In this document: positions 25,298 through 50,032 of the stretch, in pieces
Position numbering within the stretch: position 1 is the first letter of the stretch
Layout: every line of letters begins with the position of its first letter
Source: Frigidibacter oleivorans
GTDB lineage: Bacteria > Pseudomonadota > Alphaproteobacteria > Rhodobacterales > Rhodobacteraceae
Reading direction: 5' to 3'
Assembly: GCF_003993775.1 (NCBI RefSeq)
Contig: NZ_RJRZ01000020.1
Span: 1-63,834 of the forward strand
DNA: 63,834 nt
Notes under the pieces: model-generated
The model's input: only the letters and a program-made list of their open reading frames with translations
What the model was told of the DNA's origin: nothing
Databases searched by the model: none
Made by a program: the position numbers and the translations under genes

Positions 25298-25375
25298 TCG
25301 CCCGCCCGGCTAGCGCGGGACGGCGCGCGCGTCTATAGCTGGCGTCATCCGGCGCCGCGGGGAATGGAGGGTGAC

Positions 25376-26443: not shown

Positions 26444-26555
26444 GCGGGCGGAGATCGTCGCCCCGACCGTTCCGGGACGCATCGAAGGGCGGGCCCGCAC
26501 CACCAAGGGACATCGTTCACGCGGAGGATCGCTGGCGAAGCGGCCGGCGGGGCAA

Positions 26556-26584
26556 TTGACCATTTGTGGACATTTGTATACACT
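26556..26584 (+). promoter_or_regulatory. Promoter of the molybdoenzyme gene, overlapped by a palindromic operator
   Basis: TTGACC (26556-26561), exactly 17 nt, then TACACT (26579-26584) form a sigma-70 promoter. The palindrome TTGTATACA (26574-26582) covers the upstream half of the -10. The same layout recurs at 48743-48771. TTTGTGGACA just upstream may be a weaker second half-site. Confidence 0.65.
26574..26582. promoter_or_regulatory. Putative GntR-family operator TTGTATACA, site 1
   Basis: The core GTATAC is the GT-N(n)-AC dyad typical of GntR-family operators. It sits over the -10 element of the molybdoenzyme promoter, so binding should repress. The GntR gene lies directly downstream of the regulated gene. 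Regulator-site pairing is inferred from position and motif type. Confidence 0.5.
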
Positions 26585-26670
26585 AGGTTGAAACCTTACG
26601 CATCAAGCTGGACCTCTGCGGCCCTTGCCGGGGATCGCGGACCGCTTGCCCCGGACAAGGAAGGCCGCAG

Positions 26671-29019
26671 ATGCCCTCGGACACCCCCTCAGCCAATCCG
26701 GCGGACCGCCGCTATCACAGCAGCCATTGGGGCTCCTTCTCGGCGGTGCGGGAGGCGGGCGAACTGCGGATCGAACCGCTGCCCGGCGATCCGTCGCCCT
26801 CGCCGCTCTTGTGGAACATCCCGGCCGCCCTCACCCACCCCGCGCGTCTGGCGCGGCCGATGGTCCGGCGGGGCTGGCTGGAGAACGGGCCCGGCCCCGA
26901 CGCGCGCCGGGGCGCCGACAGCTATGTCGAACTGCCGTGGGATCGCGCGCTTGACCTTGCCGCGACCGAACTGGCCCGGTTGGGCGGCGGAGCGGGCTGG
27001 ACGGCAGACGACGTGCCGGGCCGCCATGTTTTCGGCGGTTCTTACGGGTGGTCATCGGCCGGACGCTTTCACCACGCGCAAAGCCAGGTCCACCGGTTCC
27101 TGAACATGGCCTTCGGCGGCTATGTCGCCTCGTCCGAGTCCTACTCCAGCGCGGCGGGTTCCGTCATTCTGGACACGGTGGCGGGCAACTGGCGCCGCCT
27201 CTCGCGCGAGGGCCGCTGGTGGGAGCATCTGCGGGACCGGACCGAACTCGTGATCGCGTTCGGGGGGCTGCCCCTGCGCAATCTGGCCGTCAGCCCCGGC
27301 GGTATCTCCCGGCACGAGGCCGCCGGCTCGCTGCGGGCCGCCATCGCCCGGGGCGCCCGCTTCGTGTCGATCAGCCCGCTGGACGATGACTTCCCGGAAG
27401 ACTGCCCGGTGGACCGGCTGCGCCCGCGCCCGTCCACCGACGTGGCGCTGATGCTGGGGATGGCCCACCGCCTGATCCGCAGCGGCGCCGTCGACGAGGA
27501 TTATCTGCACCGCTACACCACCGGCTGGCTGGCCCTGCGGGCCTATGTCGAAGGCGAGAGCGACGGCATCCCCAAATCCCCCGACTGGGCGCAAGAGATC
27601 ACCGGCATCGCGGCGGACCGGATCGCGGCGCTGGCGGATCTGGCGGCGCGAAAGCGCACGGTCGTCACCGTCGCCTACGGGCTGCAGCGGGCGCAGAACG
27701 GGGAACAGCCGGTGTGGATGGCACTGGCGCTGTCCTGCATGCTGGGCGGCGGCGCGCGGGCGGGTTCCGGCTTCTCCTACGCGCTCGGCTCCATGGGGAA
27801 CCATGGCAAACCGCAGCTGGACGTGCCGACACCCACCTTGCCCCAAGGCACCAACCGCGCCGGCGAGGTCATACCGGTGGCGCGGATCGCCGATCTGCTG
27901 TTGAACCCCGGCGGCACCTACAGCTATCGCGGCGCGCCCCGGCGCTATGCCGACATCCGGCTGATCTATTGGGCCGGGGGCAACCCCTTTCACCACCACC
28001 AGCACCTCAGCCGGCTGCGCGAGGCGTTTTCCCGGCCGGACACGATCATCGTCCATGACAGCGTGGGCACCGCCACCACCGCCCATGCCGACATCATCTT
28101 CCCCGCCACCGTCACGGCCGAGCGGGACGATATCGGCGCCAGCGCGGGCGATCCCCTGCTGATCCCGATGCGCGGACTGGCGGAGCCCTTTGGCGAGGCC
28201 CGGGACGACTACAGCATCTTCTGCGAGCTGTCGGCACGGCTGGGGTGCCTGCAGGCCTTTTCCGAAGGCCGGTCGGCCGGGGAATGGCTGGACCATCTGT
28301 ATCAGGAGACGCGTGCGGCGCTGGCCGCGGCGGGTCATCCTGCGCCGCCGTTCGGCGACTTCTTCGCCGGCCCGCCCCTGGCCCTGCCGACCTCCGAGGC
28401 GCCCGGCATGATGGAGGCGTTTCACGCCGACCCCGCGGCCCATCCGCTTGCCACGCCCAGCGGCAGGATCGAACTGTTCTCCGCGAAGGTGGCCGCCAGC
28501 GGCCTGCCCGGACATGCCGCCTGGATCCCGCCCGACGAATGGCTGGGGGCGCCTCTGGCCCGCGTCCATGGGTTCCAGCTGATTGCCAATCAGCCCGCGG
28601 GCAAGCTGCACAGCCAGCTGGATTTCGGCCCCACCAGCATGGCCCGCAAGATCGGCGGGCGCGAGGTGGCGCGGATGAACGCCGCCGATGCCGAACGCCT
28701 GGGCATCGGCGAGGGCGACGTGATCCGCATCTGGAACGATCGCGGTGCCGTTCTGGCCATGGCGCGACCGTCGCCGGGGATCGCGCCCTCGGTCATCCAG
28801 CTGTCGACCGGCGCCTGGTATGCGCCGCGGCCTGTGCCCGGCATCGGGCTGGCCTGCGTGAACGGCAACCCGAACGCGCTGACGGCCGACAGGCCGGCCT
28901 CGGTCTTCAGCCAGGGCTGCGCGGGGCAACTGGCGCTGGTCTCGGTCGAGCGGCTGGCCGATGGGGATCCCGGGCCCGTTCCGCATGACCGGATCCTGCC
29001 CCGGCCGGACCGGAACTGA
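26671..29019 (+). CDS. Cytoplasmic molybdopterin oxidoreductase, DMSO/biotin-sulfoxide reductase type
   Basis: A 782-aa bis-MGD molybdoenzyme of the DMSO-reductase family. The region GGSYGWSSAG (about 122-131) carries the Tyr-x-Trp pair found in DMSO reductase, and SESYSS (155-160) gives the serine molybdenum ligand, predicted Ser159. The C-terminal cofactor-binding domain (QLIANQPAGKLHSQLD, then AWYAPR, NGNPNALTAD) is complete. No twin-arginine signal and no 4Fe-4S Cys motif is present at the N-terminus, so it is probably cytoplasmic and BisC-like. Likely reaction: reduction of a sulfoxide or N-oxide. GGAAGG lies 8 nt before the ATG. It opens the accessory region and is followed by a GntR regulator. 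Confidence 0.9.
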   Translation: MPSDTPSANPADRRYHSSHWGSFSAVREAGELRIEPLPGDPSPSPLLWNIPAALTHPARLARPMVRRGWLENGPGPDARRGADSYVELPWDRALDLAATELARLGGGAGWTADDVPGRHVFGGSYGWSSAGRFHHAQSQVHRFLNMAFGGYVASSESYSSAAGSVILDTVAGNWRRLSREGRWWEHLRDRTELVIAFGGLPLRNLAVSPGGISRHEAAGSLRAAIARGARFVSISPLDDDFPEDCPVDRLRPRPSTDVALMLGMAHRLIRSGAVDEDYLHRYTTGWLALRAYVEGESDGIPKSPDWAQEITGIAADRIAALADLAARKRTVVTVAYGLQRAQNGEQPVWMALALSCMLGGGARAGSGFSYALGSMGNHGKPQLDVPTPTLPQGTNRAGEVIPVARIADLLLNPGGTYSYRGAPRRYADIRLIYWAGGNPFHHHQHLSRLREAFSRPDTIIVHDSVGTATTAHADIIFPATVTAERDDIGASAGDPLLIPMRGLAEPFGEARDDYSIFCELSARLGCLQAFSEGRSAGEWLDHLYQETRAALAAAGHPAPPFGDFFAGPPLALPTSEAPGMMEAFHADPAAHPLATPSGRIELFSAKVAASGLPGHAAWIPPDEWLGAPLARVHGFQLIANQPAGKLHSQLDFGPTSMARKIGGREVARMNAADAERLGIGEGDVIRIWNDRGAVLAMARPSPGIAPSVIQLSTGAWYAPRPVPGIGLACVNGNPNALTADRPASVFSQGCAGQLALVSVERLADGDPGPVPHDRILPRPDRN

Positions 29020-29144
29020 GCCGGTGCGCCGTGGCTGATCGTCCCGACCCTGCTGGGCAAGGGGCGCGCGTTTCTGCTATGCAGGGTGCGGCGGACCCCG
29101 CGCGACACTGCGACCGGTTGGTGCCTGCACCCCGATCCCGAAAC

Positions 29145-29173
29145 TTGGATACAGCCGCGAACATGTGTATCCT
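29145..29173 (+). promoter_or_regulatory. Probable gntR promoter with an inverted repeat
   Basis: TTGGAT (29145-29150), a 17-nt spacer and TATCCT (29168-29173) precede the regulator gene. GGATACA (29147-29153) and TGTATCC (29166-29172) are exact inverse copies 12 nt apart that straddle the promoter and share TGTAT with the TTGTATACA sites. This suggests autoregulation. Two CAGGTAT copies follow at 29182 and 29197. Confidence 0.45.
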
Positions 29174-29204
29174 GTTGGCATCAGGTATTCGTTGAACAGG
29201 TATC

Positions 29205-29849
29205 ATGACAAAAATATCCAAAGCCCGCGACATCAGCCACACGGTGTATGAACAGGTGCGCGACGCCATCCACAGTGGCGAGTTCAGGGTGGGCGACCGG
29301 GTGACCGAGGTCGCTCTGGCCGAAAAGTTCGGCGTCTCGCGCACCCCGATCCGCGACGCGATCTCGAAGCTGGAGGCCGACGGGCTGCTGACGAACGTGC
29401 CGCGGCGCGGGCTGATCATCACCGATCTGAGCCATCAGCAGATCGGAGAGCTGTACATGATGCGCGAGGTGATGGAGGGCGCCGCCGCGCGGCTGGCCGC
29501 GCTGGCCGGCAGCGACGCCGAGATCACCACACTGCAGGATCTGGTGGCCACCGAGGCCGGTGCGATGGACGATCCGAACAGGCTGTCCGAGATCAACAAG
29601 CGGTTCCACCGGCTGCTGGCCCTCGCCGCACACAACCGCTATCTGCTGGCGGCGATCGAGCAGCTGTCGATCACCATGTCCCTGCTGCCCAGCCTGCTGG
29701 CAGAGGGCGGACGGGCGCAGACGGCGCACGAGCAGCACATCCAGATCGTCGAGGCGCTGCAGAAGCGCGACCCGGAAGCGGCCGAAAAGGCGATCCGTCA
29801 GCACATCCGCGCGTCGCACCAGCATCGCCTGCTTCTCGCCTCTGCGTGA
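29205..29849 (+). CDS. GntR-family transcriptional regulator (FCD/FadR subgroup)
   Basis: A 214-aa regulator. The N-terminal winged helix-turn-helix (about 10-75) has the GntR pattern VYEQVRDAIHSGEFRVGD, then LAEKFGVSRTPIRDAISKLE. The C-terminal all-helical FCD effector domain (about 85-205) has the metal/ligand positions in FHRLL and HEQHIQI. The family responds to small organic acids or amino-acid derivatives. It lies between the molybdoenzyme and the dipeptide-type transporter and ends at its own terminator, so it probably controls the surrounding catabolic genes through the TTGTATACA sites. The effector is unknown. Confidence 0.92.
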   Translation: MTKISKARDISHTVYEQVRDAIHSGEFRVGDRVTEVALAEKFGVSRTPIRDAISKLEADGLLTNVPRRGLIITDLSHQQIGELYMMREVMEGAAARLAALAGSDAEITTLQDLVATEAGAMDDPNRLSEINKRFHRLLALAAHNRYLLAAIEQLSITMSLLPSLLAEGGRAQTAHEQHIQIVEALQKRDPEAAEKAIRQHIRASHQHRLLLASA

Positions 29850-30143
29850 TTCCAGCGCAGACGGGCAGCGCCGGTTTTGTGGGCGCGGGGCGGGGTTGCT
29901 GCCCTGCAAAGCGGCGACCACCCCGACATGATCCGATCGGGCTTCCTTCCGATATTCCTCCCGCCGGGGTCCTTCCGGCGGGCTTTTCTTTTACTTTCAG
30001 TGCCCTGCCGACACCGGCACTGTCCACCCGCAGCAGAGAACACCTGTTCTTATGCGCAAACAAAATAAAACAGTTGCATACTTCGGTTGGACCGTGATCC
30101 GATGAAGCAGTTGCAACAAAAATACGAACAACAGGGAAAAGCC
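29850..30143. other. Intergenic region before the peptide transporter operon
   Basis: 294 bp holding the gntR terminator and a lower-GC stretch (30041-30110). TTGCATAC at 30074-30081 differs from the TTGTATACA operator at two of nine positions and may be a weaker site. No clear -35/-10 pair was found, so the transporter promoter is not called. Confidence 0.5.
29960..29992 (+). terminator. rho-independent terminator of gntR
   Basis: CCCGCCGG, a 7-nt loop and CCGGCGGG form a perfect 8-bp stem followed by CTTTTCTTTTAC. It lies 110 nt after the gntR stop. Confidence 0.85.
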
Positions 30144-31754
30144 ATGAACCTCGAAAGACGTCACGTTCTGGGCGGCCTCGGAACGCTCTTCCTTCCGACC
30201 GGGCTGCTGTCGATTGCCCCCGCCTTTGCCGCCGAACGCGACGGCACGCTGACGATCGGCATGTCGACCGAAAGCTCGTCGATGGACCCGCACTGGCACA
30301 TCCAGACGGCCAACAGCTCGGTGTCGCAGCACATCTTCGACCGGATCGTCCATATGGACGAAAACCAGCTTGAAGTGCCGGGCCTGGCCGAGAGCTGGCG
30401 CAACGTGGACGGCAATGTCTGGGAGTTCACGCTGCGGGAGGGCGCCACCTTCCACAACGGCGACCCGGTGACGGTCGAGGATCTGATCTTCAGCTACGCC
30501 CGCGCCAGCGATGTTCCGGGCGCCATCTTCAACCTGCGGGCCTATCTGGGCGACAAGACCTTCGAGAAGGCCGACGACCGCACGCTGCGTGTCATCACCG
30601 AGTTCGCTAACCCCATCGTGCCGCGCGAACTGGCCACGACGGCCATCATCTCGAAGAAGGTCGGCGAGACGGCCCTTCCCGAGGACTACAACTCCGGCAA
30701 GGCCTGCATCGGCTCGGGTCCCTACAAGTTCAGCCAGTATATCCCCGGCCAGGTGATCGAGGTCGAGCGCAACGATGCCTATTGGGGCGACAAGCCGGAC
30801 TGGAGCCGCGTCGTCTTCCGTCCGATCCCCACGGGTGGCTCGCGGGTGGCGGCGCTGCGGTCGGGCGATGTCTCGGTGATCGATTCCGTGCCGCCTTCGG
30901 ATGTCGAGGGCCTGGAAAAGGACGCCGGGATCACGCTGGGCCGGGGCACCGCCAACCGGATGATCTTCCTGTCCTTCGATCACGGCCGCGATGTGTCGCC
31001 CTATGCGACGGCCAAGGACGGCAGCGAAATTCCGAACCCGTTCAAGAACCAGCTGGTGCGCGATGCCTTCGATCTGGCCATCGACAAGAAGGCCATTGCC
31101 GAACGCATCCTGTCGGGCAACGGCGCGCCGGCCGAACAACTCGTTCCCGCCGGAATCTTCGGCAACAACCCCGATATCGAGCTGCGGGACGCCGATACCG
31201 CCCGGGCCAAGGAGATGCTGGCCGAGGCTGGTTATCCCGACGGCTTCAAGCTGACGATGCACGGGCCGAACGACCGCTTCATTCGGGACACCGCCGTCTT
31301 GCAGGCCGCGGCGCAGATGCTGGCCCGGATCGGCATTGCCGTGGATGTCGATGCCATGCCCGCGAACATCTTCTACAAGCGCGCCAGCGGCGGCGACGGC
31401 GGCGTGCCCGAGTTCACCTTCTTTCTCGTCGGCTATGGCGCCGCCACCGGCGAGGTCTCGGGCATCCTGCGCAACCTGATCCACACCTATGACGATGTCA
31501 CCGGCCTGGGATCGAACAATCGCGGCCGCTATTCCAACCCCGAGATCGACAGGCTGATCGAGGAGGGGATGGCCACGGTCGACGACGCCCGGCGCGAGGA
31601 GATCTATCAGCAGGCCTGCGCCATGGCGGTGGCCGACGTGGCGGTGATCCCGCTTTACTACCCGATCAGCGTCTGGGGCATGGAAAGCTCGATCCAGTTC
31701 GCCGGCCGCTCGGACGAACGCACGCTGGCCATGGACTTCCACCCCGCAGGCTGA
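30144..31754 (+). CDS. Peptide-type ABC transporter, substrate-binding protein (family 5)
   Basis: A 536-aa periplasmic binding protein of the dipeptide/oligopeptide/nickel family (SBP_bac_5). The N-terminus ERRHVLGGLG followed by a hydrophobic run and AFA-AERDG looks like a twin-arginine or Sec signal cleaved near residue 29. Family features include LAESWRNVDGNVWEFTLREGATFHNGDPV (about 70-98, in two parts) and the FDLAIDKKAIAERIL segment. The ligand may be a peptide, glutathione or another small amide. AGGGAAAA lies 5 nt before the ATG at 30144; upstream in-frame codons lack this. It is the first gene of a four-gene importer operon. Confidence 0.92.
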   Translation: MNLERRHVLGGLGTLFLPTGLLSIAPAFAAERDGTLTIGMSTESSSMDPHWHIQTANSSVSQHIFDRIVHMDENQLEVPGLAESWRNVDGNVWEFTLREGATFHNGDPVTVEDLIFSYARASDVPGAIFNLRAYLGDKTFEKADDRTLRVITEFANPIVPRELATTAIISKKVGETALPEDYNSGKACIGSGPYKFSQYIPGQVIEVERNDAYWGDKPDWSRVVFRPIPTGGSRVAALRSGDVSVIDSVPPSDVEGLEKDAGITLGRGTANRMIFLSFDHGRDVSPYATAKDGSEIPNPFKNQLVRDAFDLAIDKKAIAERILSGNGAPAEQLVPAGIFGNNPDIELRDADTARAKEMLAEAGYPDGFKLTMHGPNDRFIRDTAVLQAAAQMLARIGIAVDVDAMPANIFYKRASGGDGGVPEFTFFLVGYGAATGEVSGILRNLIHTYDDVTGLGSNNRGRYSNPEIDRLIEEGMATVDDARREEIYQQACAMAVADVAVIPLYYPISVWGMESSIQFAGRSDERTLAMDFHPAG

Positions 31755-31814
31755 CGGTCAGGCCCATTCCGCGGCCGGGCCCTGCCCGGCTGCGCCCCAC
31801 CTCCGGAGCCACCA

Positions 31815-32795
31815 ATGTTCGCTTCCATCCTTCAGCGGATCGGGCAGGCCGTGTTCGTCATGTTCTGCATGACCATCGTGATCTTCATCGGCATGAACCT
31901 GATCGGCAATCCGATCGACCTGCTGATCTCGCCCAGCGCCACCCCGGCCGAACGCACGCGGCTGATCGCCGAATTCGGCCTGGATCAGCCGATCTGGGTC
32001 CAGTACTGGCGCTTTCTGGTCGGGCTGGTGCAGCTCGATCTGGGCACGAGCTACATCTTCAACGAACCCGCCCTGCGGGTGATCATGCAGCGTTTCCCGG
32101 CAACGATGGAGCTGGCGCTGGCGGCGACGTTCCTGTCGGTGCTGATCGGCGTGCCTCTGGGTCTTTATGCGGGCCTGCGCCCCTATTCGCCCGTTTCCCG
32201 CATCATCATGACGGGCAGCATCCTGGGCTTTTCGCTGCCCACCTTCTGGGTGGGGATGATGCTCATCCTGGCCTTCTCGGTGCAGCTCGGCTGGCTTCCC
32301 TCGGGCGGCCGGGGCGAGACGGTCAGGGTTCTGGGGGTGCAGTGGTCGTTCCTGACGCTGGACGGCCTGTCCCACATGCTGCTGCCCGCGCTGAACCTCG
32401 CGCTGTTCAAGGCCTCGCTGATCCTGCGGCTGACGCGGGCCGGCGTGGCCGAGGTCCTGCCGCAGGATTACGTCCGGCTGGCCCATGCCAAGGGGCTGAG
32501 CGCGCGCCGCGTGGTCTTCGTGCATGTCCTGAAGAACGTGATGATCCCGGTGGTGACCGTGGTCGGGCTGGAATTCGGCTCTGTCATCGCCTTCTCGGTC
32601 GTCACCGAGACGATCTTTGCCTGGCCCGGCATGGGCAAGCTGATCATCGATTCGATCAACAACCTCGATCGGCCCATCATCGTCGCTTACCTCATGATCA
32701 TCGTGCTGCTGTTCGTCACGATCAATCTGGTGGTGGACATCCTCTACACCGTTCTGGACCCGCGGGTTCAGTTCTCCAAAGCACGGACCAGCTGA
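31815..32795 (+). CDS. Peptide-type ABC transporter permease (DppB/GsiC-like)
   Basis: A 326-aa inner-membrane permease with about six membrane segments. It carries the BPD-transport EAA loop (RLAHAKGLSARRVVFVHVLKN, in the region 222-242) and FAWPGMGKLIIDSI. The N-terminal part (ILQRIGQAVFVMF, then FGLDQPIWVQYWRFL) is typical of DppB-type subunits. It is 60 bp downstream of the binding-protein gene with CCGGAG upstream, and its stop shares one base with the next start (TGATG). Confidence 0.94.
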   Translation: MFASILQRIGQAVFVMFCMTIVIFIGMNLIGNPIDLLISPSATPAERTRLIAEFGLDQPIWVQYWRFLVGLVQLDLGTSYIFNEPALRVIMQRFPATMELALAATFLSVLIGVPLGLYAGLRPYSPVSRIIMTGSILGFSLPTFWVGMMLILAFSVQLGWLPSGGRGETVRVLGVQWSFLTLDGLSHMLLPALNLALFKASLILRLTRAGVAEVLPQDYVRLAHAKGLSARRVVFVHVLKNVMIPVVTVVGLEFGSVIAFSVVTETIFAWPGMGKLIIDSINNLDRPIIVAYLMIIVLLFVTINLVVDILYTVLDPRVQFSKARTS

Positions 32796-33715
32796 TGCCC
32801 GTCGATCTTGCAGACCCCTTCGCACGCGAGGCCGAAGAGACCGCGCGACCGCTGCGCAGCTTCCTGCGGTCATACTTCCAGTCCCCGGGCGGGACATTCG
32901 GGCTGATCCTGCTGGTGCTGATCGTGCTGTCGGCGGTCTTCGCGCCGCTGCTCTCGTTCCAGAACCCCTATGACCTGCTGCAACTGGACATCATGGACGG
33001 CCAGTTGCCCCCGGGCGAGGTCTCGGCCGCCTATGGCTTCCCCTATCTGCTGGGCACCGACGATCAGGGCCGCGACATGTATTCGGCCATCCTCTATGGC
33101 CTGCGCATCTCGCTTGGGGTGGGCATCATCTCGGCCACGACGGCCGCGGTCATCGGTGCCACGTTGGGCCTGATCGCCGCCTACCGGGGCGGCCGCGTGG
33201 AAAGCGTGATCATGCGGCTGGTGGATTTCCAGCTGTCCTTTCCCACGATCCTGATCGCGCTGATGATCCTGGCGATCCTTGGCAAGGGCGTGGCCAATGT
33301 CATCCTGGCGCTGGTTCTGGTCGAGTGGGCCACCTTCGCGCGCACCGCCCGCGGGGTGGGCCTTGTCGAAAGCCGCAAGGAATATATCGAGGCCAGTCGT
33401 GTCCTGGGCGTGCCCGCCTGGCGCATCATGCTGCGGCACCTGCTGCCGAACTGCATTCCGCCCCTGATCGTCATCGCCACGGTGCAGGTCGCGCGCGCCA
33501 TCTCGCTGGAGGCCACGCTGTCATTCCTCGGGGTCGGCGTGCCGATCACCGAACCCAGCCTCGGCCTGCTGATCTCCAACGGCTACCAATACATGTTCTC
33601 GGGGATGTACTGGATGAGCGTCTTTCCCGGCCTGTCGCTGCTGGTGACGATCGTGGCGATCAATCTGGTGGGCGACCGCCTGCGCGATGTCCTGAACCCG
33701 CGGAAGGACACCTGA
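32795..33715 (+). CDS. Peptide-type ABC transporter permease (DppC/GsiD-like)
   Basis: A 306-aa permease of the DppC group. It has an N-terminal cytoplasmic arm, the HPFGTDxxGRD-like segment (YLLGTDDQGRDMYSA, about 86-100), about six membrane helices and the EAA loop EASRVLGVPAWRIMLRHLLPN. It pairs with the preceding DppB-like permease to form the channel. One-base overlaps at both ends (TGATG) indicate translational coupling in the operon. Confidence 0.94.
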   Translation: MPVDLADPFAREAEETARPLRSFLRSYFQSPGGTFGLILLVLIVLSAVFAPLLSFQNPYDLLQLDIMDGQLPPGEVSAAYGFPYLLGTDDQGRDMYSAILYGLRISLGVGIISATTAAVIGATLGLIAAYRGGRVESVIMRLVDFQLSFPTILIALMILAILGKGVANVILALVLVEWATFARTARGVGLVESRKEYIEASRVLGVPAWRIMLRHLLPNCIPPLIVIATVQVARAISLEATLSFLGVGVPITEPSLGLLISNGYQYMFSGMYWMSVFPGLSLLVTIVAINLVGDRLRDVLNPRKDT

Positions 33716-35598: not shown

Positions 35599-35646
35599 AC
35601 CGCGACATCCTCCCGACCCGGGACACAAGAGAAGCAAGAGACGCCG

Positions 35647-36861: not shown

Positions 36862-37034
36862 CCATTGTCCCGCATGACCCGTCCGGCGCCATGGACCGGG
36901 CCGAAGGCCGCATATCGCGCCGGCCGGACCGGACGCCGAAACCTTCATCCGCGGCCGCAGGCAGCCTTCCGGGTCCGCCCCATCCTTCGGCCACAGCCGG
37001 CGTCCCGGCCCGTCAACCCTGAAAGGACCGACCC

Positions 37035-40798: not shown

Positions 40799-40806
40799 GC
40801 CGCCGC

Positions 40807-42180: not shown

Positions 42181-42228
42181 GCCTGCCCGCGCCTTCGCGC
42201 GGAACGTCCCACAAAAGGAAACATCCCC

Positions 42229-43581
42229 ATGTCACGCACGACGCAGCTGGTCGAATTCGTCCTCGACAGCAGCTATGAACAGCTGGATCCCGCGGTCATC
42301 GTCCTGGCCAAGAAGCACTTCCTGGACTGCGTCGGCTCTGCCCTGGCCGAAGCCGCGCATCCGCGGTCGCGGATCGTGCAGAACTACCTCGGACGGGTGG
42401 GCGCCGACGGCCCGTGCCGTGTCATCGGTTACGGGCGCAAGGCCACCATCGACAACGCGGCCTTCGCCAATGGCGTTCTGGCCCATACCATCAGCTTCGA
42501 TGACAGCGGCCCGTCGCATCCCTCGGTGACCATCGTGCCGCCCCTGCTGGCCATGGGCGAGATGTATCGTCTGGACGGCAAGGCGATCCTGACCGCGCAG
42601 GTTCTGGCCTATGACGTGTTCCAGCGGCTGAATGCCGTGACCGAGGATGCATGGGAAATGCGCAAGCGGGGCTGGCATCCGACCGGCTTCTTCGGGGCCG
42701 TCGCGTCGGCCATCCTGTCGGCAAAGCTGATGAAGCTGACGCTGGATGAAAGCGTGAACGCCATCGCCATTGCGGCCACGATGGGGGGCGGGCTCAGCCA
42801 GAACATCGGCAGCATGGGTATGGGGCTGCATGCCGGCAACGCCAGCCGGAACGGCATCATCGCGGCGCATCTGTCGAAAGAGGGGTTCCGGGCCGACGCC
42901 GATCCGCTGGAAGGGCGGTTCGGCCTGATGGACGCCCTGTGCGGGCCCGGCACCTATGAGACACATGCCCTGACCGACGGTCTGGGCACGCCGTTCCGGC
43001 TGCTGGAGCCGGGGATCACCATCAAGCCCTATCCCAACTGCTGGGCCCATCACAAGGTTCTGGACTCGGTCCTTCACCTCCGGATGACCCACGATATCCG
43101 GGCCGATCAGGTGGCCCGCGTCGAGGTCGACCTTCAATCGGACAAGCCGACCTATCGCTATCTCGCCCCCAAGACCGATCTGGAGGCGCGCTACAGCCTG
43201 GGTTACGGCATCGCGCTTTGCCTGCTGGACGGCACGCTGGGGCTGGACCAGTTCGCCGATGACCGGATCGGCGACGCCCGCACGACCGACATGCTGGCAC
43301 GCATCCACCACGTGCCGCAGGCCCCGGGGCCGGCGCAGAACGAGGTGGCGATCGTGCTGAACGACGGGCGCCGCCTGACCCACCGGGTCGAATATTCCAA
43401 GGGCCATCCCCGCTTCAACCCGATGTCGGACGAGGAGGTGCAGGCGAAGTTCACCGGCTGCGCGACGCGCCTTCTGCCCGAGGCGCAGGCCGCCCGCGCC
43501 GCAAGCCTGATCAACGACCTGGAAGAGGTTTCCGATCTGGCATTGGTGATGGATGCCCTTGTGATGCCCTCAGCGACGTAG
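42229..43581 (+). CDS. MmgE/PrpD family protein, copy 2
   Basis: A 450-aa family member with KHFLDCVGSALAEAAHP near the N-terminus, ANGVLAHTISFDDSGPSHPS (about 84-103), GWHPTGFFGAVASA and KPYPNCWAHHKVLDS (about 266-280). It differs strongly from copy 1 in sequence, so the pair did not arise by recent duplication. AAGGAAA lies 9 nt upstream of the ATG. It is the last plus-strand gene of the run beginning with the peptide transporter; a strong hairpin follows. The substrate is unknown. Confidence 0.87.
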   Translation: MSRTTQLVEFVLDSSYEQLDPAVIVLAKKHFLDCVGSALAEAAHPRSRIVQNYLGRVGADGPCRVIGYGRKATIDNAAFANGVLAHTISFDDSGPSHPSVTIVPPLLAMGEMYRLDGKAILTAQVLAYDVFQRLNAVTEDAWEMRKRGWHPTGFFGAVASAILSAKLMKLTLDESVNAIAIAATMGGGLSQNIGSMGMGLHAGNASRNGIIAAHLSKEGFRADADPLEGRFGLMDALCGPGTYETHALTDGLGTPFRLLEPGITIKPYPNCWAHHKVLDSVLHLRMTHDIRADQVARVEVDLQSDKPTYRYLAPKTDLEARYSLGYGIALCLLDGTLGLDQFADDRIGDARTTDMLARIHHVPQAPGPAQNEVAIVLNDGRRLTHRVEYSKGHPRFNPMSDEEVQAKFTGCATRLLPEAQAARAASLINDLEEVSDLALVMDALVMPSAT

Positions 43582-43585
43582 GGGC

Positions 43586-43619
43586 AAAAATTCCGGGGTC
43601 GCCGGCGCGGCGACCCCGG
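43586..43619 (-). terminator. Strong terminator between mmgE copy 2 and the glutathione transferase gene
   Basis: CCGGGGTCGCC, a 5-nt loop and GGCGACCCCGG form a perfect 11-bp stem (43593-43619). On the minus strand it is followed by AATTTTTG (43586-43592), making a rho-independent terminator for the minus-strand aap-gst transcript. It may also stop plus-strand transcripts less efficiently. Confidence 0.85.
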
Positions 43620-43701
43620 CTGAACCTGCGTCGAAAGCGCCGCCCCCGAACCGGATGCGCGGCGCCGGCCGCGCCATCCCACACAGCCGGGCAGGCCGGG
43701 A

Positions 43702-44301
43702 TCAGGCCAGCGCGTCGCGGATGTGGCGCCGGTAGCCGTCATTCGTTTCCAGCCGATCACGATATGCCGCCAGCGCGGGCAGCGGCATGGCGCTTTCGGG
43801 CAGCCGGAACCAGCGGCATACCGAGGGCGACAGCGCAATGTCGGCGACCGACAGCGTCTCGCCCGCCAGATAGGGCTGCCCGGCCAGCGCGTGATCGAGG
43901 ACTTGCACCCCCCGGATGACCGCGGCCAGATCCGCCTCCGTCTCTGCCTTGCCCGCGGCGCGCGCCTTGCGGAGCCGGGTCAGCGGCGGGGTCAGCGAAA
44001 TGGCCGACCAGTCCATCCAGCGGTCGCCCCCGCTGCGGCCGGCCGCATCCTCGGGCCAGAGGGCATTCGGCGCGCGGCCGGCAAGATAGCGCAGCACGGC
44101 ATTCGATTCCCAGACGATGGTGTCGCCGTCCCGGACCACGGGAACCTTGCCGAAGGGGTTCATCGCCAGAAACGCCGCGGTGTCGGTGGCGCCGAAGCCG
44201 GTCCCGGTCGGCACCAGCTCGTAGCGTTCCCCCAGCTCGTCCAGCAGCCAGAACACCTTGGCGCTGTTCGAGGAATTGTGTCGTCCGTAGACCGTCAGCA
44301 T
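43702..44301 (-). CDS. Glutathione S-transferase family protein
   Basis: A 199-aa GST. The N-terminal thioredoxin-like domain (about 1-78) has MLTVYGRHNSSNSAKV with the likely catalytic Ser/Asn, MNPFGKVPVV with the cis-Pro, and the glutathione gamma-glutamate site WESNAVLRYL. The C-terminal helical domain has AGETLSVADIAL with the N-capping box Asp. The ATG at 44301 is fixed by the conserved start. It lies 165 bp after aapP on the same strand and before the shared terminator, so it is probably the last gene of the aap operon. Role in conjugation or thiol-dependent cleavage of a substrate is inferred. Confidence 0.9.
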   Translation of the reverse strand: MLTVYGRHNSSNSAKVFWLLDELGERYELVPTGTGFGATDTAAFLAMNPFGKVPVVRDGDTIVWESNAVLRYLAGRAPNALWPEDAAGRSGGDRWMDWSAISLTPPLTRLRKARAAGKAETEADLAAVIRGVQVLDHALAGQPYLAGETLSVADIALSPSVCRWFRLPESAMPLPALAAYRDRLETNDGYRRHIRDALA

Positions 44302-44466
44302 CGCATCATGCTCCGTTTTCCGCCGGTTGTGCCATTCGCGGGGCCACCGGCGTTTCCGGCCCCGGACGCAGGAACGCGTCGTAGATCCCGGCCGCCGCCT
44401 CGCCCGGCCGGGCCCCGGCACAGTCGCGGGTCCGGCAGTGGCCCGCCGCGACGCGCCGGCAGGCGG

Positions 44467-45234
<768 letters not shown>

Positions 45235-45253
45235 GGTGATCTCCGGAAGGGGC

Positions 45254-46375
45254 CTAGATCCGGCCCGAAGCGATCCACTTCTCCACCTGGCGCGCATAGC
45301 GCGAGAGGGCGTAGCCGAAGAAGAGGTAGACGGCGGCGACAAAGAGGTAGGCCTCGATATAGAACCTGCGCCAGAGCGGGTCCTGCATCACGGCGGTGGT
45401 CGCCGTCAGGATGTCGAACAACCCGATGATGATGACGAAGGAGGTGTTCTTCATCGCGGCGATGATGTGGTTCGTGATGGCGGGCAGGCTGATGCGCAGG
45501 GCCTGCGGCAGGATGATCCGCCGGGTGGTCTGCCAGTAGGTCAGGCTCAGCGAGGTGGCCGCCTCGTACTGGCCGCGCGGAATGGCCTGCAGCCCGCCCC
45601 GGATCACCTCGGCCTGGTAGCAGGCGAAGAAGATCGCGATGCCGACGGTGATCCGCAGCAGCTTGTTCACCTCCACGCCGGCGGGCAGGAACAGCGGAAA
45701 GACGTTCACCGCGACGAAGAGGATGGTGATCAGCGGCACGCCCCGCAGCGACTCGATGAACACGACCGACACGCCGCGCGCCACCGGCAGCGGGGCGCGG
45801 CGGCCCAGGGCCAGCAGGACGGCGACCGGCATGCCGATCAGCACCGTTCCGGTGAACAGCAGCATCGTCAGCGGCAGCCCTCCCCACTCCGACGTCGGCA
45901 CATAAGGCAGACCGAAGACCCCGCCGAACATCAGGATGCCGATGGACAGCACCGCCCCGGTCCACAGCGGCACCAGAAACCGCAGGTTCCAGCAGCGCGG
46001 CCAGAGCGACAGGACCACGGTCGCCAGATAGATCGCCATCATCAGGACGAGGCGCCAGTGTTCGTCATATGGGTAAAGACCGAACAGCATCGGGCGATGC
46101 TTTTCGACGACGACGGCCCAGCAGGCGCCCGTCGCGGCACGGCAGACATCGGGATCGGTCGTGTAGAACACCGCGTTGAAGACGCCCCAGTCCAGCACGA
46201 ACCACAGGATCCGCAGCAGGACCGCGGCCACCGCCAGCGTCAGCAGGCTTTGCCCGACGGACCGGAACAGGTTGGCCTTCAGCCAGACCCCCACCGGGGT
46301 CCGGGCATCGGGATCGTAGGCGGGCACCGGCACGACGGCCTCGCGCCGGACAACCTCAATCGGGGCAAGCGTCAT
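45254..46375 (-). CDS. aapM: Amino-acid ABC transporter permease (AapM-like)
   Basis: A 373-aa permease. About eight hydrophobic segments include the long N-terminal extension that marks AapM/BztC. The conserved loop [23 protein letters not shown] (about 264-286, read in two parts) and the preceding [15 protein letters not shown] identify the polar-amino-acid family. It pairs with AapQ to form the channel. It lies 3 bp after aapQ, indicating coupling. Confidence 0.94.
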
Positions 46376-46378
46376 GGC

Positions 46379-47575
46379 TCAGCGCTCCTTGATCGCGACG
46401 AGGCGGTTGTAGAAATTCATCGCCAGCGATGTGACCAGACTGATGGCCAGAAAGACCGTCATCATCACCGCAATCGCCTCGACCGCCTGTCCGGTCTGGT
46501 TCATCACCGTGTTGCCGATGTTCACCAGGTCCGGATAACCGATCACCACGGCGATCGAGCTGTTCTTGATCAGGCTGACATACTGGCTGGTCAGCGGCGG
46601 CACGATCACCCGCAGCGCCTGCGGCAGCACCACATAGCGCAGGATGAACCGCGGGCGCAGCGCGATGGACCGGGCCGCTTCGACCTGGCCCCGGGGCGTC
46701 GCCTGGATGCCGGCGCGCACGATCTCGGCGATGAAGCCCGAGGAGTAGAGCGCGATCCCCGCCATCAGTGCCACGAATTCGGGGCTGATCGTGGCGCCGC
46801 CGGTGAAGTTGAAGCCCTGGCGTTCGGGAAAACTCAGCTCATGCGGCGCGCCGAAGCCCAGCCAGACCAGCACGGGCGGCCCGAGGATCAGGCCGATGCA
46901 GGGCCAGAGCATGTCGACATAGCGCCCCGTCGCCTCGCGGTGGCGCCGGGCCATCCGCGCGGCCACGCTGGCCGCCGCGATCCCGGCGGCAAAGGCCGCC
47001 AGCATCCAGACATGCGCCGGATGCGCCGCCGGCAGCAGGAAGGTCAGGCCCCGGTTGGACAGGAAGCCAAGGCCCCACAGATCCAGCGCCTGACGGGGCG
47101 CGGGCAGGTTGCGGATCACCGCCGCCCAGAAGATCACCTGAAGGATCACCGGGATGTTGCGGACGATCTCGACATAGGTCAGGGCGATCCGCTGCAGCAG
47201 CCAGTTGGTGGATACCCGCATGATGCCCACGGCAAAGCCGATGACCGTCGCCACGACGATCCCCGCGGCCGAGACGGACAGCGTGTTCATCAGCCCGACC
47301 AGCAGCGCCCGGCCATAGCTGTCGCGCGAGGAATAGTCGATCAGCCGCTCGCCGATCTCGAACTGGGAGACCTCGTCCAGAAATCCGAAACCGGTGGCGA
47401 TGTTCTGGCGGCCGAGGTTCTCGACGACATTTTGGTACAGGTAGAGGCCCAGCAGCACGACACCGGCCGCCAGCGCGACCTGATAGAGGGCGGTGCGGAA
47501 GCTTTCGCTGTAGAGAAGGTCCTTCGGGCGGCGCGTCGGCGGTTTCCCGAGGCGGCCCGGGGTAGCATCTGTCAT
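46379..47575 (-). CDS. aapQ: Amino-acid ABC transporter permease (AapQ-like)
   Basis: A 398-aa permease with the extended AapQ/BztB architecture. Its hydrophobic segments are interrupted by a large loop, with YVEIVRNIPVILQ (about 138-150) and IVRAGIQATPRGQVEAARSI (about 298-317) as family signatures. The ATG at 47575 gives the usual charged N-terminus. It follows aapJ after 86 bp, which hold a small stem (CCGCC, CTGCA, GGCGG at 47617-47631) such as commonly separates binding-protein and permease genes. Confidence 0.94.
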   Translation of the reverse strand: MTDATPGRLGKPPTRRPKDLLYSESFRTALYQVALAAGVVLLGLYLYQNVVENLGRQNIATGFGFLDEVSQFEIGERLIDYSSRDSYGRALLVGLMNTLSVSAAGIVVATVIGFAVGIMRVSTNWLLQRIALTYVEIVRNIPVILQVIFWAAVIRNLPAPRQALDLWGLGFLSNRGLTFLLPAAHPAHVWMLAAFAAGIAAASVAARMARRHREATGRYVDMLWPCIGLILGPPVLVWLGFGAPHELSFPERQGFNFTGGATISPEFVALMAGIALYSSGFIAEIVRAGIQATPRGQVEAARSIALRPRFILRYVVLPQALRVIVPPLTSQYVSLIKNSSIAVVIGYPDLVNIGNTVMNQTGQAVEAIAVMMTVFLAISLVTSLAMNFYNRLVAIKER

Positions 47576-47661
47576 GAGTCGTTCCCGGCAATGACGAAGG
47601 CAGCATGCGCTCCGCACCGCCCTGCAGGCGGCGCGAAGGAAGTGGACGGGACCGACAGGCG

Positions 47662-48702
47662 TCAGTGCATCGGGAAGCCGTACAGCAGGCCGCCGTCGGT
47701 CCACAGGGTATTCTGGCCGCGCTCCAGCGCCACGGGGCTCTCGGGTCCGAAATGCCGGGTGTAGATGTCCTCGTAGTTCCCGACCTGTTCGACGATGGCA
47801 TGGACCCAGTCGTTGTCGACGCCCAGCTTGCTGCCATTGTCGCCGATGACGCCCAGCAGGGTCTGGATGTCCGGATCTTCCGACGACATCATCTCTTCGA
47901 CATTCGCCTGCGAGACCCCCAGCTCCTCGGCGTTGAAGGTGGCGTAGGTCACCCATTTGACCAGATCGTACCACTGATCGTCACCCTGCCGCACCGCCAT
48001 GGCCAGCGGCTCTTTCGAGTAGATGCCGGACAGGATCATGTGGTCGTCGGGCGTCTCGGTATCGAACGCCGCCACGCCGGGCAGCGCCGCCTTGTCCTTG
48101 GTCAACGCGTCGCAGCGGCCGGTGACATAGGCATCGACCAGCTGCTTGTTGTTCTCGATCACCACGGGGGTATAGGTCAGCCCGCGGGCAGCGAAGACCT
48201 GGGCGACATTGCGTTCGGTGGTCGACCCGGGGGCCATGCAGATTGCCGCGCCGTCGAGATCCTCGATCTTTTCGATGCCGTCGGCCTTGCGGACCAGAAA
48301 GCCCGTGCCGGTGTAGAAGATCGGCGGCGCGAAGTTCAGGCCCAGGGCCGTGTCGCGGCCCAGCGTCGCGGTAACGTTGCGGGCCAGCACATCCACCTCG
48401 CCCGACTGGATCGCCGGAAAGCGCTGCTGGGACGACAGCGCGACGAAGCGCACCTTCGAGGCATCGCCGAAGACGGCGGCAGCGATGGCGCGGCAGTAAT
48501 CCACCTCGAAACCGCTCCAGTTGCCCTGGCTGTCCGGCGCGGCAAAACCGTGGCGCGCCGGGTGCACGCCGCAGAGCAGTTCGCCCCGCGCCTTCACCGC
48601 CGCCAGCGTATCGCCGGAATCCGCCCGCGCCTCCGGCGCTCCCGCCACGCCCAGCATCAGCGTTGCCGCTGCGCCAAGACCGGCCAGTTTGATCGCGTTC
48701 AT
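47662..48702 (-). CDS. aapJ: Amino-acid ABC transporter substrate-binding protein (AapJ-like)
   Basis: A 346-aa periplasmic binding protein with a signal peptide (MNAIKLAGLGAAATLMLGV, cleaved after ARA near residue 27). Family 3 pattern: VKARGELLCGVHPARHGFAAPD, then GFEVDYCRAIAAAVFGD. It resembles the AapJ/BztA group, which binds glutamate, aspartate and other L-amino acids. GGGAGAA lies 7 nt upstream of the ATG. It is the first gene of the aap-gst operon, divergent from the second C-S lyase, sharing an operator with it. Confidence 0.95.
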   Translation of the reverse strand: MNAIKLAGLGAAATLMLGVAGAPEARADSGDTLAAVKARGELLCGVHPARHGFAAPDSQGNWSGFEVDYCRAIAAAVFGDASKVRFVALSSQQRFPAIQSGEVDVLARNVTATLGRDTALGLNFAPPIFYTGTGFLVRKADGIEKIEDLDGAAICMAPGSTTERNVAQVFAARGLTYTPVVIENNKQLVDAYVTGRCDALTKDKAALPGVAAFDTETPDDHMILSGIYSKEPLAMAVRQGDDQWYDLVKWVTYATFNAEELGVSQANVEEMMSSEDPDIQTLLGVIGDNGSKLGVDNDWVHAIVEQVGNYEDIYTRHFGPESPVALERGQNTLWTDGGLLYGFPMH

Positions 48703-48742
48703 TGCTGTTTCTCCCTGTTCTGAGGCTTGTCCAACCATCCGG

Positions 48743-48771
48743 TTGACGCCCGATGAACTATTGTATACATA
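48743..48771 (+). promoter_or_regulatory. Promoter of C-S lyase copy 2
   Basis: TTGACG (48743-48748), 17 nt, then TACATA (48766-48771). The palindrome TTGTATACA (48761-48769) covers the -10 in exactly the same register as in the molybdoenzyme promoter at 26556. Confidence 0.6.
48761..48769. promoter_or_regulatory. Putative GntR-family operator TTGTATACA, site 2
   Basis: Identical over nine bases to site 1 at 26574-26582. It overlaps the -10 elements of both divergent promoters (aapJ and C-S lyase copy 2), so one bound repressor could silence both. Confidence 0.5.
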
Positions 48772-48790
48772 TGTTCTTATATAAATGCAA
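48762..48790 (-). promoter_or_regulatory. aapJ operon promoter
   Basis: On the minus strand TTGCAT (48790-48785), exactly 17 nt, then TATACA (48767-48762). The -10 lies within the palindromic operator and overlaps the -10 of the divergent metC-like promoter. Confidence 0.55.
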
Positions 48791-48820
48791 CAGCAAACTG
48801 GTCCAGCAAGGAAGCCGGGA

Positions 48821-49987
48821 ATGAAGACGCAGACTCTGGGGCTCGAAACGAGATTGACCCATGCCGGGCGCCGTCCGGCCGACCACTCTGGCGCCGTGAA
48901 CACGCCGGTGTACCGGGCCTCGACCATCCTCTTTCCCGATCTGGCCGCGCTGGAGGCGAAGGAGAGCGCCCGGCTGCGCTATGCCCGCCGGGGCACCCCG
49001 ACCACGCATGCGCTGGAAAATGCGGTCTGCGAGCTGGAACAGGCCGATCATGCGCTGGTCGCCCCCTCGGGCGTCAGCGCGATCAGCGTGGTGCTGATGA
49101 GCTTTGCCGAACCGGGCGCGCATCTGCTGATGTCGGACAGCGCCTATGGCCCGGCCCGCAAGTTCTGCGACACCATGCTGCGCAAGTTCGGCGTCGAGAC
49201 GACCTATTACGACCCCTGCATCGGCGCCGGGATCGAGGCGCTGATCCGGCCCGAGACCCGCCTGATCTGGATGGAATCGCCGGGATCCCAGACCTTCGAG
49301 GTGCAGGACGTCACCGCGATCACCGAAGTGGCCCGGCGGCGTGGCGTGGCGACGGCGATCGACAACACATGGAGCGGCGGGTATTTCTGCCAGCCCATTT
49401 CGCAGGGTGCCGACATCTCGGTTCAGGCCGGCACCAAATACATCTCGGGCCATTCCGACCTGATGCTGGGGACCATCGCCTGCCGCGCGGACCAGTATGA
49501 CCGGCTGCGCGAAACCTATCTGCGCTTCGGGCTCTGCATCGGCGGCGACGATGCGTTCCTCGCCCTGCGCGGGCTGCGCACGCTGCCCATCCGCATGGCA
49601 CAGCATCACGCCAGCGGCCTGAGCGTGGCGAACTGGTTGCTGCAGCAGCCCGAGGTGCGGCGGGTGATCCATCCGGCCCTGCCGGGCGACCCCGGCTACG
49701 CGCAGTGGCAGCGCCACTTTTCGGGCGCCTCGGGCCTGTTCGGCTTCGTGATGACCCGGACCGACCGGCCGGCCCTGGGCCGCATGTTCGACGGGCTGCG
49801 CCTGTTCGGCATGGGATCGAGTTGGGGCGGGTTCGAAAGCCTGCTGGTGCCGTCGAACCCCGCGGCCTATCGCACCGCGACCGAATGGAACCCCGGCGGC
49901 CAGACGGTGCGGATACATGTCGGCCTCGAGAACCCCGAAGACCTGATCGACGACCTGCGCCAGGGTTTCGACCGCCTGGTCGCCTGA
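48821..49987 (+). CDS. metC: Cystathionine beta-lyase-like C-S lyase, copy 2
   Basis: A 388-aa PLP enzyme of the Cys/Met metabolism family. The PLP lysine is predicted as Lys206 in QAGTKYISGHSD. YARRGTPTT, DNTWSGGYF and GMGSSWGGFESL are conserved. Family reaction: cleavage of cystathionine or other cysteine S-conjugates. AAGGAAG lies 6 nt upstream of the ATG at 48821; an in-frame ATG at 48785 would fall about 7 nt from the predicted transcription start, so it is not preferred. It is divergent from the aap operon with a shared operator. By eye more than half of its aligned residues match copy 1. Its end faces flgD, 45 bp away. Confidence 0.92.
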   Translation: MKTQTLGLETRLTHAGRRPADHSGAVNTPVYRASTILFPDLAALEAKESARLRYARRGTPTTHALENAVCELEQADHALVAPSGVSAISVVLMSFAEPGAHLLMSDSAYGPARKFCDTMLRKFGVETTYYDPCIGAGIEALIRPETRLIWMESPGSQTFEVQDVTAITEVARRRGVATAIDNTWSGGYFCQPISQGADISVQAGTKYISGHSDLMLGTIACRADQYDRLRETYLRFGLCIGGDDAFLALRGLRTLPIRMAQHHASGLSVANWLLQQPEVRRVIHPALPGDPGYAQWQRHFSGASGLFGFVMTRTDRPALGRMFDGLRLFGMGSSWGGFESLLVPSNPAAYRTATEWNPGGQTVRIHVGLENPEDLIDDLRQGFDRLVA

Positions 49988-50032
49988 CCCGCCCGCGGCT
50001 GTCGCGGCGGCGCAGGCATCCGGTGCCGCGGC

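Follow-up and report, generated by a model that had tools for sequence, protein, structure and literature searches.

A recurring catabolic gene set in Frigidibacter oleivorans, with an S-substituted cysteine as its candidate substrate

A 24.7-kb block of genes, running from SelD to MetC2, separates ubiB and flgD in Frigidibacter oleivorans and is part of a catabolic system that recurs in other bacteria and is in part jointly marked by one operator word. The window analyzed here is the entire 63,834-bp contig C12 (NZ_RJRZ01000020.1) of the 4.05-Mb genome. A first-pass annotation, made from the sequence alone, had read the genes as serving to import and dismantle a sulfoxidized or S-conjugated amino acid, peptide or glutathione adduct, and all of the genes that it named were found using Pfam and NCBIfam. 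The recurring, partly jointly marked catabolic system is the firm result, and we have hardly any doubt that it is one co-inherited and largely co-regulated system. The best explanation, to which we give a probability of roughly 0.55, is a horizontally mobile, GntR-marked catabolic island for S-substituted cysteine together with its peptidic, N-acyl or cyclic forms. The block and its features (positions, strand, description) are as follows.

25298..50032, no strand: inserted block, ubiB to flgD (genus gap comparison and GC content)
25364..26443, plus: SelD, inside the insertion (NF002098, 515.8 bits, cut-off 299)
26574..26583, no strand: operator TTGTATACAC ahead of BisC, 88 bp from the ATG (motif search)
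26671..29019, plus: BisC-type molybdopterin S/N-oxide reductase (PF00384, PF01568; by eye no Tat leader)
29145..29154, no strand: weaker operator TTGGATACAG, 50 bp ahead of GntR, two mismatches to TTGTATACAA
29205..29849, plus: GntR/FCD regulator (PF00392 and PF07729, GntR helix-turn-helix and FCD domains both found)
30087..31754, plus, likely start near 30144: DppA-type family-5 binding protein (PF00496)
31815..32795, plus: DppB permease (PF00528)
32792..33715, plus: DppC permease (PF00528, PF12911, found on the longer open reading frame 32342-33715)
33715..35598, plus: fused two-domain ATPase, GsiA-like (two ABC_tran stretches)
35647..36861, plus: MetC1, cystathionine-beta-lyase-type C-S lyase (TIGR01324, 434.4 bits, cut-off 365.9)
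37035..39149, plus: HyuA (PF01968, PF05378)
39146..40798, plus: HyuB (PF02538)
40807..42180, plus: MmgE/PrpD 1, A type (PF03972, PF19305)
42229..43581, plus: MmgE/PrpD 2, divergent (PF03972)
43702..44421, minus: glutathione S-transferase (GST; PF02798, PF00043)
44467..45342, minus, true start further in: AapP ATPase (PF00005)
45254..46375, minus: AapM permease (PF00528)
46379..47590, minus, start approximate: AapQ permease (PF00528)
47662..48702, minus: AapJ binding protein (PF00497)
48761..48770, no strand: operator TTGTATACAT, AapJ/MetC2 intergenic (motif search)
48821..49987, plus, open reading frame from 48785: MetC2, C-S lyase (TIGR01324, 453.7 bits, cut-off 365.9)

Recurrence of the gene set and its operator

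Two modules were followed through other genomes: module A, consisting of the Dpp importer, MetC1, an Amdase/racemase-type enzyme, HyuAB and MmgE, and module B, consisting of MetC2, AapJQMP, three MmgE and GST. Module A is carried by a plasmid of Paracoccus yeei (L040) and by pPABY7 of Salipiger abyssi (L042, L174); it is present without a racemase match in Allorhizobium borbori (L059) and is partial in a metagenome-assembled genome (MAG; L061). Module B was found in Sagittula, Ponticoccus, Shinella, P. aminovorans and P. yeei. In P. yeei both modules lie within ~33 kb; the genes between them encode an M20 amidohydrolase, TauE/SafE, a DUF442-SQR protein and a sulfur dioxygenase (SDO). Clusters of Klebsiella pneumoniae (L146), Superficieibacter (L157, L158) and G562 (L181, L182; a genome from Superficieibacter's family) contain Dpp, MmgE, HyuAB, a porin, BisC, GntR, two MmgE, TauE and Aap; those of Klebsiella and Superficieibacter also have a racemase, which was not among the G562 matches. 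One stretch of G664 (L179, L180), a genome from Allorhizobium's family, begins with GST, MmgE, MmgE, MetC2, MmgE, GntR, AbrB and MmgE and continues through HyuB, HyuA, racemase, BisC, GsiA, DppC, DppB, DppA and a PrpF-family gene. BisC accompanies HyuAB and MmgE in five genomes (the window, L146, L060/L158, L181-L182 and L180), and the recurring clusters, apart from those with module B and no HyuB ortholog, are L040, L042 with L174, L059, L061, L146, L157-L158, L179-L180 and L181-L182. The first-pass annotation had named a set that never co-occurs outside this strain as a finding that would refute its proposal; co-occurrence was found, for example in P. yeei, Klebsiella and G664.

Ten plasmid records matched MetC1 with 60-80% identity, ahead of a next listed match at 49%, and HyuB gave five records at 69-85%, followed by 57%. 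The 25 rows listed for AapM comprised nine cluster records (68.6-88.7%), Klebsiella (57.5%) and 15 others at or below 51.3%; further records at 80-90% exist beyond those listed, presumably as shorter or lower-ranked matches. Given these gaps in identity, the cluster orthologs stand apart from the rest. The set is rare: counting the center genome each time, it was matched in two genomes among 295 in Superficieibacter's family (at 1e-200) and in two among 297 in that of Allorhizobium (at 1e-230). MetC2 at 1e-145 matched the window's own genome alone among 295. HyuA at 1e-150 matched in 122 of the 295 genomes of the family, with none listed above 56% identity beyond the window's own. HyuA was rejected as a family-wide marker of the island: its best 29 other places (L004-L032, ~1.5 kb on each side) had no MetC or MmgE beside them and were taken as ordinary HyuAB paralogs. 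Among the best 80 matches of a scan of genome contigs, only L059, L060 and L061 had other cluster genes, a tally that is a lower bound. Within the F. oleivorans genome itself, contig C36 (140519-144536; L044, L167) carries a tandem array of three MmgE/PrpD genes, which are orthologs of the module-B triplet of P. yeei (64% identity to B3, 67% to B2 and 54% to B1); part of module B thus lies on a contig other than the window's.

The word TTGTATACA occurs twice in the window, at 26574 and 48761, compared with a mean of 0.00 in 100 shuffles. The three regulatory sites of one type noted at first pass are thus best described as these two strong sites and a third, at 29145, that is weaker. The weaker word is also found ~50 bp ahead of the GntR homolog in the Ponticoccus cluster (L039:7440), the homolog starting at 7499, although the record annotates an earlier start at 7355. 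The core TGTATACA was present in 11 of 28 promoter segments taken from 11 sequences (10 loci plus the window) and absent from the other 329,501 bp of these sequences; 2000 shuffles of the segments gave a mean of 0.077 and a maximum of 2. This segment test is strong but not blind, because the segments were chosen by hand after the first hits had been seen; the genome-wide search was unsteered. Sites in P. aminovorans (L043:11284) and G562 (L181:15314, an exact TTGTATACAA) were not among the 28 segments. Genome-wide, WTGTATACA has four places, three of them at the gene set: BisC, AapJ/MetC2 and the C36 MmgE triplet, where the word (C36:144824) lies 225-290 bp ahead of the operon. The word at C7:83668 sits inside an open reading frame and was treated as chance. 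The GntR/FCD protein, 78-81% identical to the GntR of the Sagittula and Ponticoccus clusters, is the probable sensor of the gene set and would bind the operator word.

Two or more unrelated operons lying side by side by chance would account for the finding of modules A and B apart from each other and for the lack of an operator at the window's SelD. However, P. yeei, Klebsiella, G562 and the window each have A and B in one place, Superficieibacter has them ~14 kb apart, and G664 has a mixture of the two that lacks Aap; in addition, genes of both modules are preceded by the same operator word. A chance neighborhood is already disfavored by these results, and we consider it very improbable.

The surroundings of some clusters were also recorded. 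The Klebsiella cluster occupies 91.5-115 kb of a conjugative IncFIB/IncHI1B plasmid (NZ_CP141562.1), where it is flanked by a flavin monooxygenase cluster and, at its other end, by insertion sequence (IS) elements. In Superficieibacter (L157, 12.6-19.8 kb), frames that by eye resemble molybdenum-hydroxylase genes split the cluster halves. In Ponticoccus (L039, 1-6308), a Dpp-type importer and a serine hydrolase adjoin module B in place of HyuAB, a possible stand-in for amide opening.

Enzymes and the candidate substrate

The phylogeny proposed at first pass was carried out for the C-S lyases and placed both of them in one clade. Nine cluster MetCs (four MetC1, five MetC2; P. aminovorans and G664 MetC2 were not in the alignment) grouped together with a support of 1.0 against seven others, namely E. 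coli MetC and six plasmid MetCs, and split into two subclades (support 0.958 and 0.993). The cluster enzymes are of the same family as E. coli MetC and keep Y56, R58, K210, W340 and R372 in 9/9, but are only 42-45% identical to it and have Ser or Ala in place of Y338. The residue before the pyridoxal phosphate-site Tyr (F55 in E. coli) is Arg in all nine and in none of the other seven, and position 239 is Arg in 8/9 versus 1/6 background sequences. Q115R was rejected as a mark of specificity, with Arg in 6/6 background MetCs as well. We take F55 to be the position equivalent to a glutamate of the cystathionine gamma-lyases. In those enzymes, an entrance glutamate pair coordinates the cysteinyl part of cystathionine, and in the excerpts available single changes of the first glutamate showed no clear role (PMC6073527). 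Arg at position 55 suggests an anionic substituent rather than the amino group of cystathionine, and its presence in all nine cluster MetCs hints against cystathionine as the physiological substrate.

Both MmgE/PrpD proteins of the window (137.2 and 173.6 bits to PF03972, gathering cut-off 32.1) have iminodisuccinate (IDS) epimerase (2hp3, 2hp0) as their closest solved relatives. Characterized MmgE/PrpD enzymes, as far as the excerpted source describes them, use substrates whose 1,4-dicarboxylate backbone is substituted at C2/C3 and conserve H85, D88, H99, H150, K198 and K266 (IDS epimerase numbering), two epimerase/isomerase types having an extra tyrosine (PMC12290011). We examined 14 cluster MmgE, i.e., those of the window, C36, P. 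yeei, Klebsiella and Salipiger and one of four from G664. All six residues are kept in 13 of them, and the catalytic Tyr is also kept in five (P. yeei B2 and B3, Klebsiella B3, C36 B2 and B3). MmgE1 of the window has 6/6 residues and no Tyr145; the seven-residue set of IDS epimerase, which includes Y145, is complete in C36 B2 and B3 and in neither window copy. The likeness to the IDS epimerase system lies in the nearest solved relative and the Tyr of the B2/B3 copies, and the difference in its N-linked substrate and in the residues that the window's two copies lack. In view of the 1,4-dicarboxylate action of characterized members, the kept residues mean that a 2-substituted succinate is probably processed by the pathway, in which epimerase-type MmgE occur alongside others. 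The MmgE/PrpD proteins, left unexplained at first pass, suggest that part of the substrate is of succinate type, a 1,4-dicarboxylate (PMC12290011, as excerpted).

HyuA and HyuB are adjacent and have the Pfam domains of both subunits; their scores against caprolactamase CapAB (NF050156/NF050157) were 466.4 and 214.6 bits, short of the cut-off of 1000, and the closest solved relatives of HyuA are N-methylhydantoinase 7hk5 and then 5-oxoprolinase 6yra. The BisC-type enzyme has the Pfam molybdopterin domains, fell below the TIGR00509 bisC_fam cut-off (729.8 bits, cut-off 1017.55), and is 54% identical to the G664 cluster BisC and 49% to that of Klebsiella; it shares a family with E. coli BisC but is just 35% identical to it. 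The GsiA-like ATPase scored 748.6 bits against NF007613 (GsiA glutathione importer ATPase), under the cut-off of 1077. The closest solved relative of AapJ is 4z9n, which we take to be a glutathione-bound structure, a point that the literature search did not confirm; an AlphaFold model of AapJ from the single sequence (mean pLDDT 40.2) was too poor for comparison.

These families could also be read as a route for Allium- or legume-type S-alk(en)yl-cysteine sulfoxides and gamma-glutamyl peptides, in which Gsi/Dpp imports the peptide, HyuAB is a 5-oxoprolinase, BisC reduces the sulfoxide and MetC frees the thiol. The BisC and MetC families are present, 5-oxoprolinase ranks second among the closest solved structures to HyuA, and the ATPase resembles that of the glutathione importer. 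However, one to four MmgE/PrpD copies per cluster would be unaccounted for, given that the characterized ones described in the excerpted source need a 1,4-dicarboxylate (PMC12290011), and no gamma-glutamyl cyclotransferase was found among the 20 window proteins scanned with Pfam. We regard this route as unlikely.

Sulfur-oxidizing neighbors bear on whether sulfur is involved at all. TauE/SafE is present in the clusters of P. yeei, Shinella (by annotation), Klebsiella, Superficieibacter and G562, and in the F. oleivorans genome an SDO (81% identical to that of the P. yeei cluster) and a DUF442-SQR protein (70%) are encoded next to each other at C6:61671-62522 (L201), with no operator. A route without sulfur, for opine lactams or hydantoin/ureidosuccinate, would make MetC an amino-acid racemase and BisC an N-oxide reductase. 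It would be in keeping with the HyuA/B-like genes and mmgE of the succinamopine Ti plasmid pTiEU6, whose opines include lactams (PMC6733357, as excerpted), with the annotation of E. coli MetC also as alanine racemase, with the MetC1 match to 9iz5 (an L-alanine/L-glutamate racemase), and with the Amdase/EutA-type enzyme of several clusters. TauE/SafE in five clusters, SQR/SDO in P. yeei and two copies of a C-S-lyase family argue against it, and we think such a route improbable. A sulfur compound is the likely substrate, and an S-substituted cysteine would be a somewhat less secure but still favored assignment; a succinate-type substituent is put forward tentatively, as rather doubtful. Of the import-and-dismantle proposal, the recurring, partly jointly marked set stands and the sulfur chemistry fits (the lyase clade; TauE/SafE, SQR and SDO of P. 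yeei), while a sulfoxide, a glutathione adduct or a gamma-glutamyl compound is a candidate substrate only.

General detoxification of xenobiotic mercapturates or glutathione conjugates by a deacylase, C-S lyase and GST, with no fixed substituent, appears less probable still. An M20 amidohydrolase-family protein (TIGR01891) adjoins DppA in P. yeei and in the MAG L061, and GST occurs in nine of 10 alphaproteobacterial clusters read, the exception being the 9.9-kb contig L061; but the presence of MmgE and HyuAB points to a defined structure and that of two importers to nutrient use, and the enteric clusters are without GST. Routes for biotin (suggested by the name BisC), ergothioneine and 2-aminothiazoline were considered as further candidates.

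For an island devoted to S-substituted cysteine, we infer the following reactions. The free amino acid would enter through Aap, and a cyclized or larger form through the Dpp/Gsi-type importer. A cytosolic BisC-type enzyme would return an S-oxide to the thioether, and HyuAB would open a cyclic amide (lactam, oxoproline or hydantoin) at the expense of ATP. MmgE/PrpD, with the Amdase/Asp-Glu-racemase-type enzyme in other clusters, would fix the stereochemistry of an S-borne 2-substituted succinate or eliminate a thiol from it; MetC1 and MetC2 would cleave the C-S bond to give pyruvate, ammonia and thiol. Sulfide would then be oxidized by SQR and SDO, and sulfite would leave through TauE/SafE where it is encoded. 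A cysteine-succinate-type thioether is proposed because it fits the lyases, MmgE, both importers, the reductase and the sulfur-oxidizing neighbors, and HyuAB may open the lactam that such adducts can form, by analogy with the opine lactams of pTiEU6.

Several observations weigh against such an island. In content, module B occurs without a HyuB ortholog in L038, L039, L041 and L043; neither MetC nor GST was matched in those stretches of the enteric clusters that were read; the P. yeei, Salipiger and Allorhizobium stretches have no BisC; and the window has no match for racemase, TauE, SQR, SDO, M20, PrpF-type or AbrB. The epimerase-type MmgE pair of this genome lies on C36 and not in the island, and MmgE2 of the window keeps only 4/6 residues, with D88 replaced by S and K198 by M, both of which the other 13 keep; MmgE2 may have a different chemistry or be decaying. 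The window's BisC is no nearer to cluster BisCs (48-54%) than to outside ones (Rhizobium 52%, Pseudoroseomonas 53%), and its placement in the tree was not firm (support 0.499). A tblastn comparison (1e-6) found no match between the TauE/SafE of P. yeei and that of Klebsiella, which indicates a common family and not orthology, and SDO is present in all five genus genomes, so by itself it is no evidence for the island. As for control, 17 of the 28 chosen segments are without the core, and no site with two or fewer mismatches precedes DppA (29850-30140) or HyuA in the window; GntR control of the DppA-to-MmgE operon is therefore only putative. The genome-wide operator count is not above chance (5 hits versus 4 for a reversed control pattern), and it is thus the placing of the sites, not their number, that is informative.

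A search of the open-licence literature found no described pathway with this gene set, in agreement with the first-pass annotation, which knew of none. Known S-(2-succino)cysteine pathways use acetylation with YxeK or 2SL, the scm/yxe pathway being that of Bacillus subtilis and the 2SL variant that of Enterococcus italicus and Dickeya dadantii (PMC9706529; PMC12757645; both as excerpted). They share with the island a cysteine-C4-dicarboxylate thioether (as proposed here), an ABC importer and, in some clusters, an M20-type amidohydrolase; the island differs in having MetC, HyuAB, BisC and MmgE instead. No acetyltransferase, YxeK-type monooxygenase or 2SL lyase was found by Pfam among the 20 window proteins, the rest of the genome not having been searched. 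The opine-lactam region of pTiEU6 likewise has a HyuA/B-like pair and mmgE with ABC importers, and its authors propose lactam opening by that pair; the excerpts of that paper mention no C-S lyase, BisC or sulfite exporter for it (PMC6733357).

A more specific route is offered as a speculative possibility, namely dissimilation of succinated or itaconated thiols. A cysteine-S-succinate or cysteine-itaconate adduct, its sulfoxide and its self-made lactam would be imported, BisC would reduce the sulfoxide, HyuAB would open the lactam, MmgE B2/B3 would epimerize the mixed succinyl center, the Arg55-type MetC pair would free mercaptosuccinate, and another MmgE would eliminate sulfide to leave a C4/C5 dicarboxylate. 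If true, this would be an MmgE/PrpD-based C-S chemistry new to the literature searched and shared by Rhodobacterales, Rhizobiales and gut Enterobacteriaceae; it would tie bacterial catabolism to damage products derived from fumarate and itaconate, and the occurrence of the system in a gut isolate, on a conjugative plasmid, would lend the substrate relevance to the gut. In any case, MmgE/PrpD and HyuAB are common and mostly without an assigned function, and a compact island that combines one operator word, a reductase and two C-S lyases provides a concrete assay route to both.

Insertion site and extent of the block

In the four other genus genomes compared (G205, G295, G296 and G297; ubiE-ubiB against the flgD-fliK neighborhood), ubiB and flgD are separated by 719, 724, 388 and 1052 bp, measured between tblastn hit ends (at L141 the UbiB hit ends at residue 486 of 508), and the insertion is thus present in one of five. 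The island had been placed from 26556, but the block opens further to the left, after ubiB (which extends to 25297), and ends at flgD (from 50033); counted in this way, it begins with SelD and not with BisC. Consistent with the earlier failure to see a flanking tRNA, no tRNA was found in the window, nor was there any Rfam match at the gathering score. A close stand-alone SelD is found in one of the five genus genomes, that of the window; elsewhere in the genus there are 39-40% matches inside 767-773-aa frames (three genomes) or none at 1e-30 (one genome). The GC content of the inserted block is 0.680, compared with 0.702 and 0.723 in its flanks.

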